From the NCBI RefSeq assembly GCF_010993705.1, contig NZ_WOFO01000012.1:59112-123111 (forward strand): a stretch of DNA of 64,000 nt. Reading direction: 5' to 3'. The notes under the pieces were generated by a model. It was given only the letters and a program-made list of their open reading frames with translations. It made no database searches and was not told the DNA's origin. The position numbers and the translations under genes were made by a program. Source of the stretch: Cyclobacterium sp. SYSU L10401 (GTDB lineage: Bacteria; Bacteroidota; Bacteroidia; Cytophagales; Cyclobacteriaceae). Shown here piece after piece: positions 5,072 through 28,210 of this stretch. Every line of letters begins with the position of its first letter. Within the stretch, counting starts at the first letter, position 1.

Positions 5072-6511
5072 TTAATATCCCGGGTTTTGCTCAAGGTTTT
5101 CGTTTAACTGAATCTGCTCCAACGGAAGGTTTCCCAGAATCCTGTAATCTGTGTAGGGTACTTCCAGAAATTCTCCATGCTTACTGATATCCCTCCCGTT
5201 TCTTTTCAAATCGAAAAACCGATGTCCTTCCAAGGCAAATTCCAGTCTTCTTTCCAATAAGATCCGATTTAGCAACGCCTCCCCCGAAAGGAGATTGTCA
5301 ATGGCTCCCAGGCCCCTTTTGGAACGAAGGGCATTGATGTCTTCCCTGGCCCCGGCAGGGTTGCGCTGATACCTGGCTTCGGCCCTGATCAGGTACAATT
5401 CCGCTGCCCGGATTACCGGAATATTTTCCAGAAAATCACCCTTATAACCCGTCCATTTTCTGCTGGCATATACCGGACCCTCAATCCCTTCCCTTGTCGT
5501 TTCTCTCCAACAATTCCTTCTGACATCCCCTTCCTCATAGGCGGAAATCAATTCATTGGATGCCCCAATGATAAATTGAGCAGCCGGTTCATTATCTGCA
5601 ACCAGTGAATTGAGGGAATTGTTAACCCCATCTACACTGCTCCAATCCACCTGCCTGAGTTCAAGCTCAAACAGGGACTCAGGGTGGGGTGCCCTGGAAA
5701 AACCCTGTACATACTGACCGGCCTCCGACAAACCGTCCCCGTTGGTTCTAAGGCCCAGGAAGTCCATGGCAGAAGTGGCTGCGGCCTCCGCCTCTTCCAT
5801 GCGATTCCAATACAGGTAAAGCCTGGCCAGCAAGGTCAATGCTGCCCCTGCATTGGCATAATAGACCCCTTCCGAGCCTATGGGGACAGCCCCTACCAGG
5901 GGTATCGCTTCTAGTAAATCACTTTCAATCTGCTGGTAAACCTCCTCCACTGTAGACCTGGTTCTGAAATCGGCATCTGAGGCTACCAATGTGGGGGTCA
6001 ATCGCAAAATTGGCCCCAGGTTAAATCCATCAACCTCCCTCCCTGGCTCATATCCGTATACCCGGCAAAGGTCAAAATAAAACAATGCCCGCATAAAATA
6101 GGCATCCCCTTTGATAAAGGACTTTTCCTGTTCTTCTCCTGAGACAGTTTCATCATCTATACTTTCAATGATGAGGTTAGCATCGTTGATGCCTCCATAG
6201 ACCACACTGTTCCAAATGGCGATGTGATCCCGGTCTCCATTGGATTCTTCTCCCTGATACCTCCCTGTATTGGCTACAATCCTTAAGTTATCAGCCAATA
6301 TTTCTGGAGCAATCATCATTGTTTGCCCATAATAACTGAAGCTTGTCGCCCGGTTATACATGGAATTGGCCACAGATTGAAAGCCAGAGACATCATTAAA
6401 AGCTACCTCTGGAGTAAGACTTTGTCTGGGCGTGGTATTCAGGTCTGTACAGGAAAACACTGGTAAAGCAAGCAAACCTGAATAAAGTATGTATTTTCTG
6501 ATCATCTTCAT
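5072..6511 (-). CDS. SusD/RagB family outer-membrane nutrient-binding lipoprotein
   Basis: 479 aa from the ATG at 6511, chosen because it opens a clean lipoprotein signal (MKMIRKYILYSG ... FSC, Cys21) 11 nt after the susC stop; reading further upstream only adds residues inside susC. Family marks are the N-terminal TTPRQSLTPEVAF, the TPR-like helices with YFMRALFYFDLCRVYG, and the C-terminal RAEARYQRNPAGAREDINALR and LLERRLEFALEGHRFFDLKR motifs. SusD proteins cap the SusC channel and capture the ligand at the cell surface. Pairing with a T9SS protease hints at peptides rather than glycans, as for RagAB of Porphyromonas gingivalis (known), but the ligand here is inferred. Confidence 0.93.
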   Translation of the reverse strand: MKMIRKYILYSGLLALPVFSCTDLNTTPRQSLTPEVAFNDVSGFQSVANSMYNRATSFSYYGQTMMIAPEILADNLRIVANTGRYQGEESNGDRDHIAIWNSVVYGGINDANLIIESIDDETVSGEEQEKSFIKGDAYFMRALFYFDLCRVYGYEPGREVDGFNLGPILRLTPTLVASDADFRTRSTVEEVYQQIESDLLEAIPLVGAVPIGSEGVYYANAGAALTLLARLYLYWNRMEEAEAAATSAMDFLGLRTNGDGLSEAGQYVQGFSRAPHPESLFELELRQVDWSSVDGVNNSLNSLVADNEPAAQFIIGASNELISAYEEGDVRRNCWRETTREGIEGPVYASRKWTGYKGDFLENIPVIRAAELYLIRAEARYQRNPAGAREDINALRSKRGLGAIDNLLSGEALLNRILLERRLEFALEGHRFFDLKRNGRDISKHGEFLEVPYTDYRILGNLPLEQIQLNENLEQNPGY

Positions 6512-19654: not shown

Positions 19655-20704
19655 TCAGGGATGCCAATCAAAACTGTGCATTTCTTCCAGACAGGCCTTA
19701 AGCAATTTAATGCTTGCTGCCACATCAGACTTATGGGCCATTTCGATCACCTGATGGAGGTGTCTGGTGGGTATGGAAATGGCACCTGCTATGGCACCCT
19801 GTTTGCCCATACGCTGCACTCCTGCGGTATCCGTACCGCCAGCCGTAAGAATTTCTGTCTGAAAAGGAATGTTATTTTTGGAGGCTGTTTGCTTCATAAA
19901 GGCTACCATGCGGTAATCGCAAATGGCGGAGGAATCCATGATCTTTATGGCAGTCCCTTTGCCCAGTTCGGTGATCTTTTCATGGGCTGCTGCTCCCGGT
20001 AAATCGAAAGCAATGGTAGTGTCCAGGGCTATACCAAAATCCGGGTCTATGTGGTGTGCAGACACCTGGGCTCCTCTAATTCCCACTTCTTCCTGAACAG
20101 TAAAGGTAGCGTACACATCGAAAGCCGGGGATTCTAATTCTCTGAGTGTTTCCAGTAATATAAAAACTGCGATTCGATTGTCAATGGATTTGCAATTGAC
20201 ACAGTCACCCATTTCTATCAAGGCTCTTTCTCTGGTGACCGGATCTCCCACCTGCACCCATTTTTCCACCTCTTCCTTATCCATCCCCAGATCAATGAAA
20301 TAATCGGTAAGTTTGGGAAGCTTGGTTTTTTCTTCCTGGGTCATCACATGGATGGGTTTACTTCCCATCACGCCTACCAGGTCTTTTTTTCCATGAATAA
20401 TTACCCGCTGAGCTGTTAGGGTTTTGGGGTCAAATCCTCCCAGGGGGTGAAACCTTAAAAATCCTTTATCGTCAATATGGGTAACAATAAATCCAATTTC
20501 ATCCATATGGGCAGCCACCATGACTTTTTTATTGTCAGGGTTATTTTTGCCCTTCTTAATGGCGATGACATTTCCCAAATTATCTACCGAAACTTCATCT
20601 GCGAGGTCTCTGACCTTCATCAATATAAAATCACGGATTTTCTTTTCAAATCCCGGTGCTCCGGGCAATTCACAAATCTGTTTTAATAAAGCGATATCAA
20701 TCAT
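19655..20704 (-). CDS. M42 family metallopeptidase (glutamyl aminopeptidase-like)
   Basis: 349 aa, full length for the family. Metal and catalytic residues typical of M42/FrvX aminopeptidases are visible: AAHMDEIGF (His66, Asp68), CKSIDNRIA, VQEEVGIRGA (Glu-Glu pair), ALDTT (Asp) and the C-terminal IPTRHLHQVIEM (His). These are cytosolic dodecameric aminopeptidases acting on peptides; some are mis-annotated as endoglucanases. It lies 28 nt downstream of the purF-like gene, same direction. Confidence 0.93.
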   Translation of the reverse strand: MIDIALLKQICELPGAPGFEKKIRDFILMKVRDLADEVSVDNLGNVIAIKKGKNNPDNKKVMVAAHMDEIGFIVTHIDDKGFLRFHPLGGFDPKTLTAQRVIIHGKKDLVGVMGSKPIHVMTQEEKTKLPKLTDYFIDLGMDKEEVEKWVQVGDPVTRERALIEMGDCVNCKSIDNRIAVFILLETLRELESPAFDVYATFTVQEEVGIRGAQVSAHHIDPDFGIALDTTIAFDLPGAAAHEKITELGKGTAIKIMDSSAICDYRMVAFMKQTASKNNIPFQTEILTAGGTDTAGVQRMGKQGAIAGAISIPTRHLHQVIEMAHKSDVAASIKLLKACLEEMHSFDWHP

Positions 20705-23573: not shown

Positions 23574-23623
23574 TGATTGCTCATTACGAAACGAAAAAAG
23601 ATTTTTTACCGGTTATGACAGAT

Positions 23624-23652
23624 AAAACCCCCGGATTCACGCACCCGGGGGT
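23624..23652 (-). terminator. Terminator-like hairpin in murI leader
   Basis: Minus strand reads CCCCCGG (23651-23645), a 10-nt loop, CCGGGGG (23634-23628) and then TTTTATC. The 7-bp all-GC stem followed by four T is a compact intrinsic-terminator shape. It lies between the murI promoter and the murI ATG with no minus-strand gene upstream, so it can only end a transcript of about 60 nt or act as an attenuator of murI. Confidence 0.6.
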
Positions 23653-23685
23653 ATGCAAGCGAAGCGTTTAAAGTTAATAATAAGA

Positions 23686-23715
23686 CAAAGTTAATAAAGT
23701 TTTCTGAAGCCACAA
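23686..23715 (-). promoter_or_regulatory. Bacteroidota-type promoter of murI
   Basis: Minus strand -7 box TAACTTTG at 23686-23693 and -33 TTG at 23713-23715, separated by 19 nt, which is the preferred spacing of the Bacteroidota primary sigma factor. This is the best two-box match found in the window. The predicted start lies near 23680, about 105 nt before the murI ATG. Confidence 0.6.
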
Positions 23716-23735
23716 TAGTTACCGATTATACGCAA

Positions 23736-23756
23736 TTTGGGTATTTTCTACCCAAA
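23736..23756. promoter_or_regulatory. Palindrome TTTGGGTA-N5-TACCCAAA, candidate operator/enhancer
   Basis: Perfect 8-bp inverted repeat with a 5-nt centre, in the 263-bp divergent region between murI and the small membrane-protein gene. Its centre is about 76 bp upstream of the predicted sigma-54 start site and about 66 bp upstream of the murI start, so it could serve either gene. An enhancer for the NtrC-type regulator encoded at 24300 is an inference. Confidence 0.5.
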
Positions 23757-23795
23757 GTATTTGCGATTTTGATGTCAGGGTGAATCATTTAATGG

Positions 23796-23810
23796 TGGCA
23801 CAGTTACTGC
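23796..23810 (+). promoter_or_regulatory. Sigma-54-like promoter (-24/-12)
   Basis: TGGCAC, 5 nt, CTGC: GG at 23797-23798 and GC at 23809-23810 are exactly 10 nt apart, the invariant GG-N10-GC of RpoN promoters, and the -24 half is a perfect TGGCAC; the -12 half (CTGCG versus TTGCW) is weaker. The start would fall near 23822, 15 nt before the ATG at 23837. Confidence 0.5.
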
Positions 23811-23836
23811 GGATTAATTCATCAAACGGTTGTGTT

Positions 23837-24193
23837 ATGAAAGGCAATTTAAATACATTTACAGGTGGAATCATGGGATGCTTTATTTGTGTCCTCATTT
23901 TTTATTTTAGCGTCCCCTTGAAGAATTTAGAAGGGGATTTCAACAACTATCCCGTCCAAAGCCACGTATACGAAACTAAAGGCACTGATACAGTATTCAT
24001 TGCCGCCCAGGAATTACCGCCTACTGTCAAACAGGTAATTCAAACTGATAGTCTCATCAATGATTTAAAAATCACTGTTGTGAAAAAAATATCCCAGAAG
24101 AATGACGATTACTATGACGTCTGCTTTCTGGACACGGACAACTTCAACATCATGGTTTTATATGATAAAAATGGTGGTGTTATTCTCCAGTAG
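23837..24193 (+). CDS. Small membrane-anchored PepSY-like protein
   Basis: 118 aa from the ATG at 23837; an upstream in-frame GTG (23780) would place the start before the sigma-54-like promoter and is rejected. One N-terminal membrane segment or uncleaved signal (about 10-28), then a polar domain whose end (ELPPTVKQVIQTD ... DDYYDVCFLD ... VLYDKNGGVIL) resembles the PepSY-like fold with its closing D-K-N-G turn. PepSY-like domains often sense or inhibit periplasmic partners. It sits alone between a promoter and a terminator, just upstream of an NtrC-type regulator; a target or input role for that system is inferred. Confidence 0.75.
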   Translation: MKGNLNTFTGGIMGCFICVLIFYFSVPLKNLEGDFNNYPVQSHVYETKGTDTVFIAAQELPPTVKQVIQTDSLINDLKITVVKKISQKNDDYYDVCFLDTDNFNIMVLYDKNGGVILQ

Positions 24194-24229
24194 ATAGATC
24201 AGAAATACAGCTAAGCCAACGATTACCAA

Positions 24230-24264
24230 AAAGCACTGATTGTGAAATCGGTGCTTTTATTTTA
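24230..24264 (+). terminator. Rho-independent terminator after the PepSY-like gene
   Basis: AAAGCACTGATT (24230-24241), loop GTGA, AATCGGTGCTTT (24246-24257), followed by TATTTTAT. A 12-bp stem with one T-G pair. It separates the small gene from the response regulator, whose ATG is 43 nt further on. Confidence 0.75.
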
Positions 24265-24299
24265 TATTTATTCTATTAACACTTGTTTGGATAAAATAC

Positions 24300-25664
24300 A
24301 TGGCAAAAATTCTCTTGATAGAAGACGACCTTACTTACTCAAAAATCATAAAAAATTTTTTGGAAAAAAACGGGTATGAGGTATTGAGCAGTACGAAAGT
24401 CACCGATGGATTGAGTCATTTTGAAAAACACGAAATAGCCCTTACCATAACAGATTACCGGCTTCCGGATGGAACTGGCATGGATGTTTTGGACAAAATC
24501 ATACACGATTACCCTGATACTCCAGTGATTCTGATCACCAATTATTCAGACATTCGTACCGCTGTAAAATCGATGAAGATGGGAGCATTCGAGTACATTA
24601 CAAAACCTATCAATCCAGACGAGCTGCTTCTCACCGTACAACAAGCACTAAAAAAAGATTCGGAAAGTAAGGAGGGGGATAAAAAACCCAAAAAAGCAAA
24701 AAGTCCAGGCACTTCTTCTGAATTGGACTACCAGATCGGGCAGAGTAAGGAGGCACAACAAATTGAAGCACACATAGAGCTGGTGGCACCAACTGATCTA
24801 AGCATCATCGTCTTGGGAGAAAGTGGCACGGGCAAAGAGTATATTTCGAAAAGGATCCACCTGAAATCCAAAAGGTCAGAAGGGCCTTTCGTTGCAGTAG
24901 ATTGCGGGGCTTTATCTAAAGAATTGGCAGGCAGTGAGCTCTTTGGGCATGTCAAAGGGGCTTTTACAGGAGCCATTGACCATAAGACAGGGCATTTTGA
25001 AAATGCTAACGGTGGCACCATACTGCTTGATGAAATCGGCAATCTCAGCTACGATATTCAGATCAAATTGCTCCGTGCCATACAGGAAAGACGGATCCGT
25101 AAAATCGGGGGCAATAAAGACATTGCCATTGACGTCAGGATCATAGCCGCCACCAATGATGATTTACAGGAACTTGCCAGATCAGGGCAATTCAGAGAGG
25201 ACCTTTTTCACAGGCTGAATGAATTTAGCCTTAAGGCACAGCCACTGCGGGAAAGAAAAGAGGATCTCCTTTTTTTTGCACGCCTTTTCATGGAAAAAAG
25301 CAATGCCAGTCTGGAAAAAAATGTGGCCGGATTCAGCCCTGAAGTAGAAAAAATCTTGTTGCAATACCATTGGCCGGGAAACCTCCGGGAGTTGAAAAAT
25401 ATCATCCGCAGAGCTGTTTTACTTACCGGTGAAGGATTGATTCAAGCTGATGTTATTCCCACGGAGCTTCTGGATAGTGAGCCTTTCCAACCTGCAGATA
25501 TACATTCTGCCAAAGACTTGAAATCATCCTTCGAAGAACAGGAGAAATTGCTGATTATCAAGACCCTGGAAGAATTAAAATTCAATAAATCAAAAACAGC
25601 AAAAGTACTGAATATGGATAGAAAAACCCTTTACAATAAGCTTGAAAAATATGGACTGGACTAA
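24300..25664 (+). CDS. Sigma-54-dependent response regulator, NtrC family
   Basis: 454 aa. Receiver domain (about 3-115) with phospho-acceptor Asp52 (TITDYRLPDG) and Lys102 (YITKP). A basic linker leads to an AAA+ domain with Walker A GESGTGKE (173-180), the sigma-54 contact loop GAFTGA (220-225), Walker B ILLDEIG (241-247) and the WPGNLREL sensor motif. The C-terminal Fis-type helix-turn-helix (KSKTAKVLNMDRKTLYNKLEKYGL) binds DNA. It therefore activates RpoN promoters, and one lies at 23796-23810. The partner kinase is probably the convergent gene, whose stop overlaps its own by 3 nt. Confidence 0.95.
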   Translation: MAKILLIEDDLTYSKIIKNFLEKNGYEVLSSTKVTDGLSHFEKHEIALTITDYRLPDGTGMDVLDKIIHDYPDTPVILITNYSDIRTAVKSMKMGAFEYITKPINPDELLLTVQQALKKDSESKEGDKKPKKAKSPGTSSELDYQIGQSKEAQQIEAHIELVAPTDLSIIVLGESGTGKEYISKRIHLKSKRSEGPFVAVDCGALSKELAGSELFGHVKGAFTGAIDHKTGHFENANGGTILLDEIGNLSYDIQIKLLRAIQERRIRKIGGNKDIAIDVRIIAATNDDLQELARSGQFREDLFHRLNEFSLKAQPLRERKEDLLFFARLFMEKSNASLEKNVAGFSPEVEKILLQYHWPGNLRELKNIIRRAVLLTGEGLIQADVIPTELLDSEPFQPADIHSAKDLKSSFEEQEKLLIIKTLEELKFNKSKTAKVLNMDRKTLYNKLEKYGLD

Positions 25665-28210
25665 TCGGCAAAGGCATATCCAAACCTTTGGGCCAATTCT
25701 TCCAGTAAGCCATTTATTTTCTCGGTCAGGTTCCAGACTTTTTCCTGAACCCCCTCCGTCCTTCCCTCTTTGAGATCCAACTCAATACTTCTGGCCAGGT
25801 TCCTTTCCTTGAATTTCAGCTGCCCCAGTCTACTGGAAAGCTGGTGAGCTATGGCTTGTACCTTTTGGAAATCTCCCTCATCTGTAGCCTTATTAATTCT
25901 GATTAAATCCAGTCCTGTCTGGGTATAAAAGCCTTCCAGAATTTCTTTCAATAAATGCTCATCACCCATGCAAAATTTCTTGATTTCGGTGAGGTCATAT
26001 TCCCCTGAATCGGGCTCGGGGGATTTGGCTGTTGGTAAATATTGCTTACCGGCCTTTACCGAAGGCATTTCCTTTTTGTACGACTTTAGTGATGAAGCTA
26101 TTTTCTCTACCAATTCAGCTTCATTAAAGGGTTTTAATAAGAGCCCGTCAAAACCAAACTTAATTAAACTTTCCTTTTCCCTGGCAAAAACATTGGCAGT
26201 CATGGCCAAAATAGGAACACCCTTGTACTTTGGATTTGCTCTTAATTGGTCATAGACCTGATAACCGTCTACCTCCGGCATTTGAATATCCAATAATATC
26301 AGATCGAAATCTTCCTCTTTAAAATTATTTTTGAAATCCACTCCTCCTGAATGGGTGATAATATCAGCACCCAAGCCATCCAGCAAAATCTTTACAAACT
26401 TCAACCCCATTTCGTCATCATCGATCAATAAAATGCGGAGTCCTTCAATACGCTCCAACCTGGCAGCAGGTATGGGCGATTCCTCCTTCTTCTCCAGTAA
26501 GGTGGATGGCAAAGAAACAGTCATGGTAGTACCGTTTCCAGGTTCACTCTTTACTTTAATTTGTCCCTCCTGCAGGTCAACCAGTCTTTTGATAATGGCC
26601 ATCCCAAGACCTGTGCCTCCATATTTTCTGGAAACGCTGCCATCACCCTGATTAAATTCCTTGAATAAATTTCGCTGCAAATCCGCAGACATGCCCATAC
26701 CGGAGTCTATCACCTGTAAGATAAGATCGCCCTTTTTCTCAAAATAAACCCTGACCAATACCTTACCCTTTTCGGTAAACTTCACTGCGTTGGAGAGGAG
26801 GTTATTCATAATTTGGTTGATTCTCAAATCATCCCCCAATAAAAATTTATTTACGGGCAATAGGACTGAAAAATCAAGTTGAAGGCCTTTTTCTTGTGCT
26901 TTTTGCTTATAAGATGAATGGAGGTTTCTGAAGAATAGGTCCGGATTGATGATTCCTTTTTGAATTTTAATCTTTCCTGCTTCCAGTTTTGAAAAATCCA
27001 GGATATCATTGACAATACCCAAAAGTGTACCCGAAGCGAGCTGTATCATCCGCACGTATTCCTGCTGGTCAGGATCCAGGGAAGTTTTAGCAATGGCATC
27101 GTTGTAACCCTTGATTACATGCAAGGGATTTCTGATCTCGTGACTCATACTTGCCAAAAAATCCTGCTTGGTTTTGGCCAGGTTATCTGATCTTTTCTTG
27201 GCCTCTGCAAGTTTGGTTTGATAGGATTCTGATTTCTTTATCTCTTTGATAATACTGAAAATAAATCCGGAAGACCCAATCACACCCACAATAATCAACA
27301 GCCCAAGTAAGAGTGAAAGCTTGTAGGTAAGTTGGTAGGCAGATTGATTCTCCGCTTCGGATTTCAGCAAGGCTTCTTTCTGCAATGAAGAGACAATATG
27401 TTGGATATTGATGATAAGGGCACGGTTTTTTTCATTCAGTTCCTGTTCAAGCTCGCTTAATCGGGAACGAAGAAATTGCTCTTCATTGTTAATGTCCAGG
27501 ACCATTTGCCTCACGGCATAAATGATAGAGTCTGAGCTGGAAAGGGTATGATTATCCACCTGGTTGATCCTATTAAGGTTTAGCCGAAGCATGCCCAGGA
27601 TTTTTTCCATATCTTCCTTCCCCGCCCCGGCCAGTACATCTCCAAAGTCCTCCTGCTTTTTGGGTTGGATCGGTTTTACTTCAGTTTTGTCGCTTTTCTC
27701 TCTGGATGGAGGATTGATACCTATCCGTATCTTACCCAAACTTTGGAGCCGGCTCAATTCCTCTTTTCTTTTTATTTTTCTTTCGATATTGTAGAGGGCT
27801 TCTTTGCTAAAGTTCCTGTTGTAGAGGTTGGCTTTTACGTCCTGTAAACCCTTATATACGACCATCAATTCATTGACACTGTAGTTGATCCGCTTAATCT
27901 GCCCCATTTCAGCAGTGTCTGCAGCCATTCCCTCCAATTTTCTGATTTCTTCCTGGATTCGATTGTAGTAGTCCAGATTTTGGCTGGAATCTTCCTCTGC
28001 AAAAACACTACGGGATTTGTCAAGCTGATAAATGTCAGCCAGTAATTCATTCAAATTTCTAAGCTTTTCGTTGGGTTCGGAAAGGGACTCTACTGATTCG
28101 AGTAATTGCGTTACACTATAATAAGTAATGGCTCCAGCTCCTACAATCAGGCATATCGCCAGAAAAAAGCCAAGGATTACTTTTATTCTCGCATTGAATC
28201 TCATAGACAT
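25661..28210 (-). CDS. Hybrid sensor histidine kinase with receiver and Hpt domains
   Basis: 849 aa. TM1 (about 9-31), a 265-residue extracytoplasmic, mostly helical sensor region, TM2 (about 297-320), HisKA with His357 (FLASMSHEIRNP), HATPase_c (NQIMNNLLSNAVKFT, DSGMGM, GGTGLGMAI), a receiver with Asp641 (LILLDIQMPEVDGY) and a C-terminal Hpt domain with His789 (AIAHQLSSRLG). This is a full His-Asp-His relay that lacks only a final output, which the convergent NtrC-type regulator could provide. The sensor region is not a known family to me; it looks like a four-helix or coiled-coil type such as those of stress or ligand sensors. Confidence 0.92.
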   Translation of the reverse strand: MSMRFNARIKVILGFFLAICLIVGAGAITYYSVTQLLESVESLSEPNEKLRNLNELLADIYQLDKSRSVFAEEDSSQNLDYYNRIQEEIRKLEGMAADTAEMGQIKRINYSVNELMVVYKGLQDVKANLYNRNFSKEALYNIERKIKRKEELSRLQSLGKIRIGINPPSREKSDKTEVKPIQPKKQEDFGDVLAGAGKEDMEKILGMLRLNLNRINQVDNHTLSSSDSIIYAVRQMVLDINNEEQFLRSRLSELEQELNEKNRALIINIQHIVSSLQKEALLKSEAENQSAYQLTYKLSLLLGLLIIVGVIGSSGFIFSIIKEIKKSESYQTKLAEAKKRSDNLAKTKQDFLASMSHEIRNPLHVIKGYNDAIAKTSLDPDQQEYVRMIQLASGTLLGIVNDILDFSKLEAGKIKIQKGIINPDLFFRNLHSSYKQKAQEKGLQLDFSVLLPVNKFLLGDDLRINQIMNNLLSNAVKFTEKGKVLVRVYFEKKGDLILQVIDSGMGMSADLQRNLFKEFNQGDGSVSRKYGGTGLGMAIIKRLVDLQEGQIKVKSEPGNGTTMTVSLPSTLLEKKEESPIPAARLERIEGLRILLIDDDEMGLKFVKILLDGLGADIITHSGGVDFKNNFKEEDFDLILLDIQMPEVDGYQVYDQLRANPKYKGVPILAMTANVFAREKESLIKFGFDGLLLKPFNEAELVEKIASSLKSYKKEMPSVKAGKQYLPTAKSPEPDSGEYDLTEIKKFCMGDEHLLKEILEGFYTQTGLDLIRINKATDEGDFQKVQAIAHQLSSRLGQLKFKERNLARSIELDLKEGRTEGVQEKVWNLTEKINGLLEELAQRFGYAFAD

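Follow-up and report, generated by a model that had tools for sequence, protein, structure and literature searches.

The module described here lies in a Cyclobacterium genome (Bacteroidota), within a window of 64,000 nucleotides (the whole stretch of DNA that was analysed), and all of its parts are present at positions 23736-28210 (Table 1). A small gene is followed by the gene for an NtrC-type response regulator and by a convergent gene for a hybrid histidine kinase, and the order murI–small gene–regulator–kinase is kept in all 12 genomes of the genus in a synteny comparison. The regulator–kinase pair extends through the Cyclobacteriaceae, where its neighbourhood is kept across genera, and the Cyclobacterium genome also encodes rpoN (E 5.3e-58). 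Judged from sequence, this marine Cyclobacterium and its relatives appear to carry a compact sigma-54 circuit in which the kinase and the regulator switch on a small envelope protein. The original prediction had called the module self-contained, which fits this genome because the exact palindrome core occurs at one place in it; Pleomorphovibrio and a related MAG speak against a strict reading of the term, since their kinase and regulator genes are apart in the genome and a small gene could not be recognised.

Table 1. Features of the module, in window coordinates.
Feature	Position	Strand	Remark
Palindrome TTTGGGTA-N5-TACCCAAA	23736..23756		Putative UAS (enhancer) for the NtrC-type regulator
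Sigma-54 promoter TGGCACAGTTACTGC (-24/-12)	23796..23810	+	Inferred transcription start ~23822
118-aa PepSY-like protein, N-terminal membrane anchor	23837..24193	+	
3'-UTR block CAGCTAAGCCAACGATTACCAA of the small-gene transcript	24208..24229	+	Conserved
13-bp GNRA-capped hairpin and T-rich run	24229..24262	+	Probable terminator; separates small gene and regulator
NtrC-type response regulator, REC-AAA+-Fis HTH	24300..25664	+	Pfam Response_reg, Sigma54_activat, HTH_8
Hybrid histidine kinase, HisKA-HATPase-REC-Hpt, large extracytoplasmic region	25661..28210	-	Pfam (Hpt below its cut-off)

The regulator carries D52 and the GAFTGA loop, as had been claimed. D52 is invariant in all 45 regulators compared, and the loop reads GAFTGA in 37 of them and GSFTGA in the other 8; G050 was dropped before these counts, as its contig ends inside the regulator and the upstream region is absent. 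The His-Asp-His relay ascribed to the kinase was recovered as H357, D641, and H789. All 41 kinase frames detected at the 45 loci keep these residues, including H789 of the putative Hpt domain, itself a weak Pfam match under the cut-off (E 0.088). Of 118 relatives, 36 match the sensor region of the kinase at E <= 0.001, and 24 of these do so below 1e-60; the structural model of this region is of low confidence (pLDDT 61).

The box upstream of the small gene has the predicted GG-N10-GC form, and the ATG at 23837 follows it by 27-41 nt. Within this single sequence the promoter evidence is modest, because the 64-kb window contains two copies of the strict form TGGCAC-N6-TGC, at 19792 and 23796, and the score of the box within its own 200 nt reaches p = 0.02. 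Across the genus, TGGCAC-N6-TG(C/T) is kept in 12 of 12 genomes, with TGGCAC in every one and the -12 element being GC in nine and GT in three; 10 of the 15 promoter columns are invariant, and the promoter score falls below p = 0.05 in 11 of the 12 loci. The palindrome, TTTGGGTA-TTTTC-TACCCAAA, stands where it had been placed, and the 76 bp given for its distance is correct from its centre to the inferred transcription start but not to the start codon, since its 3' edge lies 80 nt from the ATG. At this locus, TGGGTA-N5-TACCCA is exact in 10 of the 12 genus genomes and differs by one change in the other two; 10 of 17 palindrome-core columns are invariant, compared with 0 of 38 columns of the spacer between palindrome and promoter and 0 of 26 columns of the leader. 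The real evidence for both predicted sites is this conservation across genomes, which outweighs the modest support from the single sequence. As the palindrome and the -24/-12 box are conserved in relatives, being present in 12 of 12 genus genomes and degenerate in part of the other genera, the proposed activation of the small gene by the regulator is well supported, and so is its predicted dependence on RpoN.

The palindrome 21-mer has a single exact copy in its own 5.9-Mb genome. The original prediction had suggested a search for further copies near RpoN promoters, and this did not enlarge the set: relaxed copies (<=2 mismatches) in the same genome number 8 vs 10 in the control, with no excess. 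Elsewhere in the genus, the exact core occurs at four other places in three genomes. A palindrome regulon was considered and set aside; in the genus, the joint palindrome-TGGCA pattern is found at seven other places in five genomes vs six in the control; no -24/-12 box was seen at the two extra joint-pattern places inspected (L146 and L158).

It is improbable that the palindrome instead serves another transcription factor or a divergent minus-strand promoter, namely that of a small RNA candidate beside murI. In this genome, the palindrome does precede the inferred minus-strand start by ~65 bp, as such a role would allow, but a site of this type persists upstream of the module in most loci of g41, g2, g54, g21, and G037, where the small RNA is absent from the locus.

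The minus-strand small RNA candidate beside the module and murI is unrelated to the module and is found in many relatives; 3 of 26 sequences were left out of its alignment, and Rfam gave no match above the gathering score. Its full core was found in none of five outside-family matches inspected, and partial cores occur outside the family in G501 (CTTCGCTTGCA) and G404 (TTGCTTGCA). The hairpin on this side was rejected as a murI leader: among the 17 loci listed, murI is directly downstream in 2 and absent in 14, and in one a partial, weak match lies at a distance of over 1 kb.

Regulation of the module through an upstream enhancer and a sigma-54 promoter would extend, in degenerate form, to other genera. 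A UAS-like site, TGNG-N9-CNCA, whose definition was made partly by eye, is found upstream in 9 of 14 loci of genera not used in its definition, vs a mean of 1.21 and a maximum of 4 in shuffled controls; one of the nine, that of G342, overlaps the promoter-like box there and lacks credibility as an enhancer. The site is present in 5 of 8 g41 loci (shuffle mean 0.48, maximum 3) and in 3 of 11 g48 loci, a count equal to the shuffle maximum of 3 (mean 0.62), and the rule did not find it in 8 of 11 g48, 3 of 8 g41, and 5 of 14 other loci. The upstream tests used G341 but not G042; the two have contigs of equal length and very probably represent a single genome. The promoter score reaches p<0.05 in 16 of 31 other-genus loci and misses it in 15; G310 and G223, in which no first gene was found, were left out of this scoring. 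The -12 element also deviates in these genera, reading TTTC in g41 loci and being not clear in G058 and g35.

All 12 genus genomes have the 118-aa protein, encoded within four genes of the kinase or the regulator. Its description as PepSY-like is suggested by fold but not by family assignment: the best Foldseek matches of its AlphaFold2 model (pLDDT 70.6) are DUF2874, BLIP-like, or calcium-regulated periplasmic proteins of Bacteroides and Parabacteroides (3due, 3u1w, 3db7, and 4hbr, at prob 1.00 and TMq 0.45-0.50, with E values of 0.0085-0.14 and none <0.001), and no PepSY family match was found in Pfam or NCBIfam. Nor do its Pfam and NCBIfam matches include a ZraP-type family. A profile of the relatives' small proteins matches 3u1w at E 1.1e-4, and PF11396 matches 1 of 12 relatives (E 0.0088); a profile of the genus small proteins matched no PepSY-like or DUF2874 structure. 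The small PepSY-like proteins are homologous across genera by profile comparison (hhalign prob 97.4, E 1e-11, 74 columns).

A 52-aa membrane protein is encoded in 14 of 33 other-genus loci, and its C-terminal tail, [LV]E..[FL]Y.[PQS], is conserved. The frame begins 12-15 nt after the -12 element in 14 of 14 cases, 12 of which were found automatically, and together with this fixed promoter distance the proteins probably represent a new micro-protein family. No 52-aa frame was recognised at the Cyclobacterium locus, and neither kind of small gene was recognised in G341, G342, G310, and G223. The idea that the Cyclobacterium protein is the 52-aa protein fused to a PepSY domain was dropped, as it had no profile support (hhalign prob 3.9).

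Downstream of the small gene, the hairpin (MFE -16.8, z -3.55) and its T-rich run are the probable terminator of the Cyclobacterium small-gene transcript, before the regulator gene. The hairpin loop reads GTGA, GTAA, GGGA, GCAA, or GCGA, conforming to GNRA in 12 of 12 genus genomes. Among these genomes, 16 of 21 columns are invariant at 24209-24229 and 45 of 55 at 24208-24262, the figure for third codon positions of the PepSY part being 1 of 69. No stretch measured at the locus is more conserved, and this, with a GNRA loop that is retained while its letters change, suggests another reading, in which the main sigma-54 product is a 3'-UTR-derived small RNA (GCTAAGCCAACG core and GNRA-capped terminator), comparable to LuxO-Qrr and GlrR-GlmY, and the protein is its carrier or partner. 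We consider this unlikely, since the 3' block (<=3 mismatches) is confined to the 12 genus members among 295 family genomes and the circuit is wider, near-matches of the 19-nt core in its own genome are not above the control (3 at three mismatches), and part of the block may be kept as the regulator's promoter (TTG-N20-TATATTTA, by eye). Pairing of the block with the core of the neighbouring small RNA was discarded, as 6.6% of shuffles paired equally well.

A dedicated sigma-54 envelope-signalling circuit, with a probability of about 0.6 for the whole explanation, would account for the locus as follows. An extracytoplasmic signal would alter the activity of the hybrid kinase, and phosphate would pass from His357 through Asp641 and His789 to Asp52 of the convergent regulator, along residues that are all invariant. 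The phosphorylated regulator would bind the conserved palindrome, whose centre lies ~76 bp before the inferred start, and activate RNA polymerase–sigma-54 at the -24/-12 box. In Cyclobacterium, the transcript would yield one TM-anchored PepSY-like protein and end at the terminator before the regulator gene; in other genera, it would yield the 52-aa membrane protein, a PepSY-like protein bearing an export signal, or both. That the regulator acts at these sites to produce a small envelope protein is, on the conserved sequences, very likely. Finally, the small protein or proteins may feed back on the sensor region of the kinase, damping being more probable than amplifying; this last step, suggested by the analogues DbfQ, ZraP, and MgrB, has in our estimate slightly less than an even chance. 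A more elaborate arrangement is only a speculative extension: a near-leaderless sigma-54 promoter would direct a 52-aa protein and a PepSY-like partner to one kinase, as an MgrB-plus-DbfQ device under an NtrC-type regulator, and Cyclobacterium would use a single TM-anchored PepSY-like protein instead, with the conserved 3'-end RNA as a second output.

The small protein could also be an ordinary output of the regulator, periplasmic binding or chaperone-like, that exerts no feedback on the kinase, a reading that we regard as a serious, if less probable, one. PepSY-like proteins are known in other settings, and the close structural match BT0923 is listed in an iron-dependent stimulon table, in which the row for BT0922 names a PAS-domain sensor kinase (available text of PMC10434189); contact of the small protein with the kinase is proposed by analogy only. 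However, the analogues DbfQ and ZraP do feed back, the small gene is apparently the only exact-palindrome target of the regulator in this genome, and PepSY-like genes accompany the regulator–kinase pair in all 12 genus loci and in 23 of 33 loci of other genera. The last two observations favour a role inside the circuit. In Bacteroidota, a sigma-54 version with one exact palindrome in this genome would be a clean case, in which feedback by the small protein is directly testable, since a single main target seems to be all that the regulator has.

No published account of this circuit was recognised among the matches listed, the subscription literature being mostly outside their scope. To our knowledge, ZraP is not known as PepSY-like, and MgrB-PhoPQ is neither a sigma-54 system nor equipped with a PepSY partner. 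The locus resembles ZraPSR of E. coli and Salmonella in that an NtrC-family regulator and a sigma-54 promoter serve a small accessory protein; ZraR drives the divergent sigma-54 promoters of zraP and zraSR, and ZraP is a zinc-binding periplasmic chaperone and, by the title of a work referenced there, a repressor of its own two-component system (available text of PMC4987338). Unlike in ZraPSR, the kinase here is encoded by a convergent gene of its own and has a REC and a putative Hpt domain, and the small protein is PepSY-like by model. MgrB, a tiny membrane protein made under the regulator of PhoPQ that feeds back on its kinase (available text of PMC2789325), is comparable by description to the 52-aa proteins of other genera. 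The small protein has Bacteroides BT0923 and BVU_2987 (DUF2874/PepSY-like) among its best structural matches and differs from them in lacking a Pfam PepSY match, in its TM anchor, and in having just one short domain. In the available text of PMC12714742, kinase tuning through PepSY binding is a recent report: the periplasmic PepSY protein DbfQ binds the sensor domain of DbfS and causes a phosphatase shift, dbfQ is predicted to be co-transcribed with dbfRS, and the phyla named are Proteobacteria, Terrabacteria, and Fusobacteria, the string "Bacteroid" being absent from that text. Like DbfQRS of Vibrio cholerae and the BqsS-type modules of Pseudomonas aeruginosa, as far as these are described there, the Cyclobacterium locus encodes a small, predicted extracytoplasmic PepSY-like protein immediately upstream of a two-component system; unlike DbfQRS, its small gene has its own predicted sigma-54 promoter and probable terminator, and is accompanied by an NtrC-type regulator and a hybrid kinase.

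The original prediction placed the palindrome, the -24/-12 box, the 118-aa ORF, an NtrC-type regulator (RR) and a convergent hybrid kinase (HK) in this region, and ORF analysis, sequence inspection and Pfam located all of them, with their key residues, where they had been described, as well as murI on the minus strand. The genome of origin (G000), a 5.9-Mb Cyclobacterium genome, also encodes RpoN. A 137-aa version of the small ORF with a GTG start is listed as well; it is not likely to be the gene, because it begins upstream of the promoter and because, in 12/12 genus genomes, 26-28 nt separate the -12 position from the first ATG 3' of the promoter. The gene order murI-small gene-RR-HK is identical in all 12. 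The small gene of one of them, G007 (locus L044, about 6160-6210), has one additional base close to the start codon region and is listed with a non-ATG start, reflecting either a real change or a sequencing error.

Single-sequence statistics for the palindrome and box are modest: the strict -24/-12 box occurs twice in the window, its score reaches p = 0.02 within its own 200 nt, and relaxed palindrome copies are no commoner than controls in the genome of origin. The question of chance is decided instead by sequence comparison across the genus. Among the 12 genus genomes, 10 of 17 columns are invariant in the palindrome core and 10 of 15 in the promoter, the corresponding values being 0/38 for the spacer and 0/26 for the leader. 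Ten of the 12 carry an unaltered TGGGTA-N5-TACCCA at this locus and the remaining two differ from it by one change; the core has a single exact copy in the genome of origin. A joint palindrome-plus-TGGCA pattern recovers this locus in 10/12 genus genomes and hits 7 places elsewhere, in five of them, versus 6 reversed-control hits.

The association of the circuit's parts extends across genera. The HK sensor profile matches 36/118 relatives at E <= 0.001, and the 24 matches below 1e-60 comprise 12 from Cyclobacterium and 12 from other genera; among the latter, RR directly adjoins HK in nine, lies within ~3.2 kb in two (genomes G045 and G031), and was not found in the region examined around HK in G042, very probably the Pleomorphovibrio genome of L054. 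A further 21 genomes, drawn from six of these other genera, yielded 21 HK matches, with RR in every locus region examined. In Pleomorphovibrio and a related MAG (L054/L129; L055/L130), HK resides on the cysK/pyrB side and RR beside murI at another locus, the small gene being recognised at neither locus; either the two may have been joined in Cyclobacterium, or this arrangement may be a split.

The degenerate palindrome TGNG-N9-CNCA was found upstream of RR in 5/8 loci of genus g41 (shuffle mean 0.48, maximum 3) and in 3/11 of genus g48 (mean 0.62, maximum 3), the g48 count alone not exceeding chance, as it equals the shuffle maximum. Since the rule was set partly by eye from g1, g48 and g41 alignments, the fairer figure is that from genera not used to define it, namely 9 of 14 loci (200 shuffles: mean 1.21, maximum 4); one of these nine, in G342, overlaps its own promoter-like box and is doubtful as an enhancer site. 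Promoters, scored with a -24/-12 consensus and first genes assigned by hand, reach p < 0.05 in 11/12 genus loci and 16/31 other-genus loci, those missing it including 6/9 g48 loci and both g35 loci. The g48 alignment shows a GG-N10-GC variant of the TTGGTCTGATTTTGGC type. In the eight g41 genomes (L128, L174, L176, L177, L179-L182), the -12 part reads by eye as TTTC, not TTGC; this sequence, which may be a lineage-specific form of the sigma-54 -12 element, lies 12-15 nt before the start codon of a 52-aa protein.

The Cyclobacterium small protein has a TM segment at its N-terminus and a PepSY-like domain; sequence searches detect it in 13/118 relatives, 12 of them Cyclobacterium. Pfam gave no PepSY match for the window protein. 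Its AlphaFold2 model (pLDDT 70.6, nine sequences) most closely matches, among solved structures, Bacteroides/Parabacteroides periplasmic proteins (DUF2874, calcium-binding, BLIP-like), with a Foldseek probability of 1.00 but a best E of 0.0085 and TM scores around 0.45-0.50. At profile level it is homologous (probability 97.4, E 1e-11) to the ~104-128-aa proteins encoded upstream of RR in other genera, 12 of which made up the profile compared; such proteins are recognised in 23/33 other-genus loci. Read by eye, their export signals are apparently of the lipoprotein type in g48 and cleavable elsewhere, so the anchor of these small proteins seems to vary while their location outside the cytoplasm stays constant.

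Features at the locus and small proteins encoded upstream of RR in other genera (g, genus; G, genome; L, locus)
Feature	Position	Strand	Location	Occurrence
Small RNA candidate	23611-23720	minus	between palindrome and murI	
3'-UTR block + probable terminator hairpin	24208-24262	+	between small gene and RR	
52-aa membrane protein			upstream of RR	g41 8, g21 2, g54 2, G037, G054; L122, L124, L126, L127, L128, L173, L174, L176-L182
~104-128-aa protein			upstream of RR	g48 9/11, g41 8/8, g2 2/2, G064, G056, G061, G037

A 52-codon membrane protein with the C-terminal tail [LV]E..[FL]Y.[PQS] precedes RR or the PepSY gene in 14/33 other-genus loci, its length hanging on start choice in 6/14 (GTG in G064; a longer in-frame ORF with an ATG upstream of the inferred transcription start in G164, G269, G257, G031 and G037). 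Silent sites differ more than others in 6/7 gene pairs (e.g. pS 0.50, pN 0.06), the G269-G257 pair being too close for this comparison. In 14/14, 12-15 nt separate the -12 position from the start codon, as read by eye in G198 and G220, where automatic scoring ranked another site higher; with this spacing the leader would be about 1-4 nt long and the transcripts near-leaderless. Pfam matched none of the 11 proteins scanned, and profile comparison found no link to the Cyclobacterium small protein. The tail is missing from the TM proteins of genus g35, which are 66 and 58 aa long.

The most conserved stretch measured at the locus, exceeding the flanking coding sequence, is the 3' block of the small gene's transcript, in which 45/55 columns are invariant versus 1/69 third codon positions of the PepSY-coding part. 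Within it lie CAGCTAAGCCAACG and a hairpin of 13 bp (z -3.55) with a GNRA loop in 12/12 genus genomes (GTGA, GTAA, GGGA, GCAA or GCGA). At <=3 mismatches, the block occurs in all 12 and in none of the 283 other family genomes searched. The hairpin probably separates the small gene from RR, which may be transcribed from a TTG-N20-TATATTTA promoter, read by eye, that overlaps the block; a 3'-derived small RNA from the block is possible.

The minus-strand element beside murI is a small RNA candidate of Cyclobacteriaceae, linked to the sigma-54 module only via the shared intergenic region. It comprises a TTG-N19-TAnnTTTG promoter, a core (in the window ACGCUUCGCUUGCA; in other genomes mostly ACUCUUYGCUUGCA), a terminator hairpin and a U-run, with GCUUGCA invariant in all 23 aligned rows. 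Across these 23 related sequences, 184/184 cells of the eight hairpin pairs are standard pairs, and the covariation score is reached by 0/500 shuffles; six of the eight pairs change on both sides, as reached by 71/500 shuffles. Of 23 loci inspected, 16 have TAnnTTTG upstream and 8 the full TTG-N18-22-TAnnTTYG, both counted without a shuffle control. Matches occur in 42/118 relatives, single in 39, and mostly away from murI, which is directly downstream in 2/17 loci. At order level, 72/341 genomes match, 49 of them within the family; the full core is absent from the five outside-family matches read, two of which hold part of it. In Rfam, the window copy has no hit above the gathering score.

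For the circuit itself, we infer phosphotransfer, RR binding, activation, feedback and the sign of that feedback; further sources are PMC10434189, PMC12316311 and PMC9723704. The closest known systems are ZraPSR, which has sigma-54 promoters and a periplasmic accessory protein (PMC4987338), DbfQRS, in which a PepSY protein binds the kinase sensor (PMC12714742), and MgrB-PhoPQ (PMC2789325).
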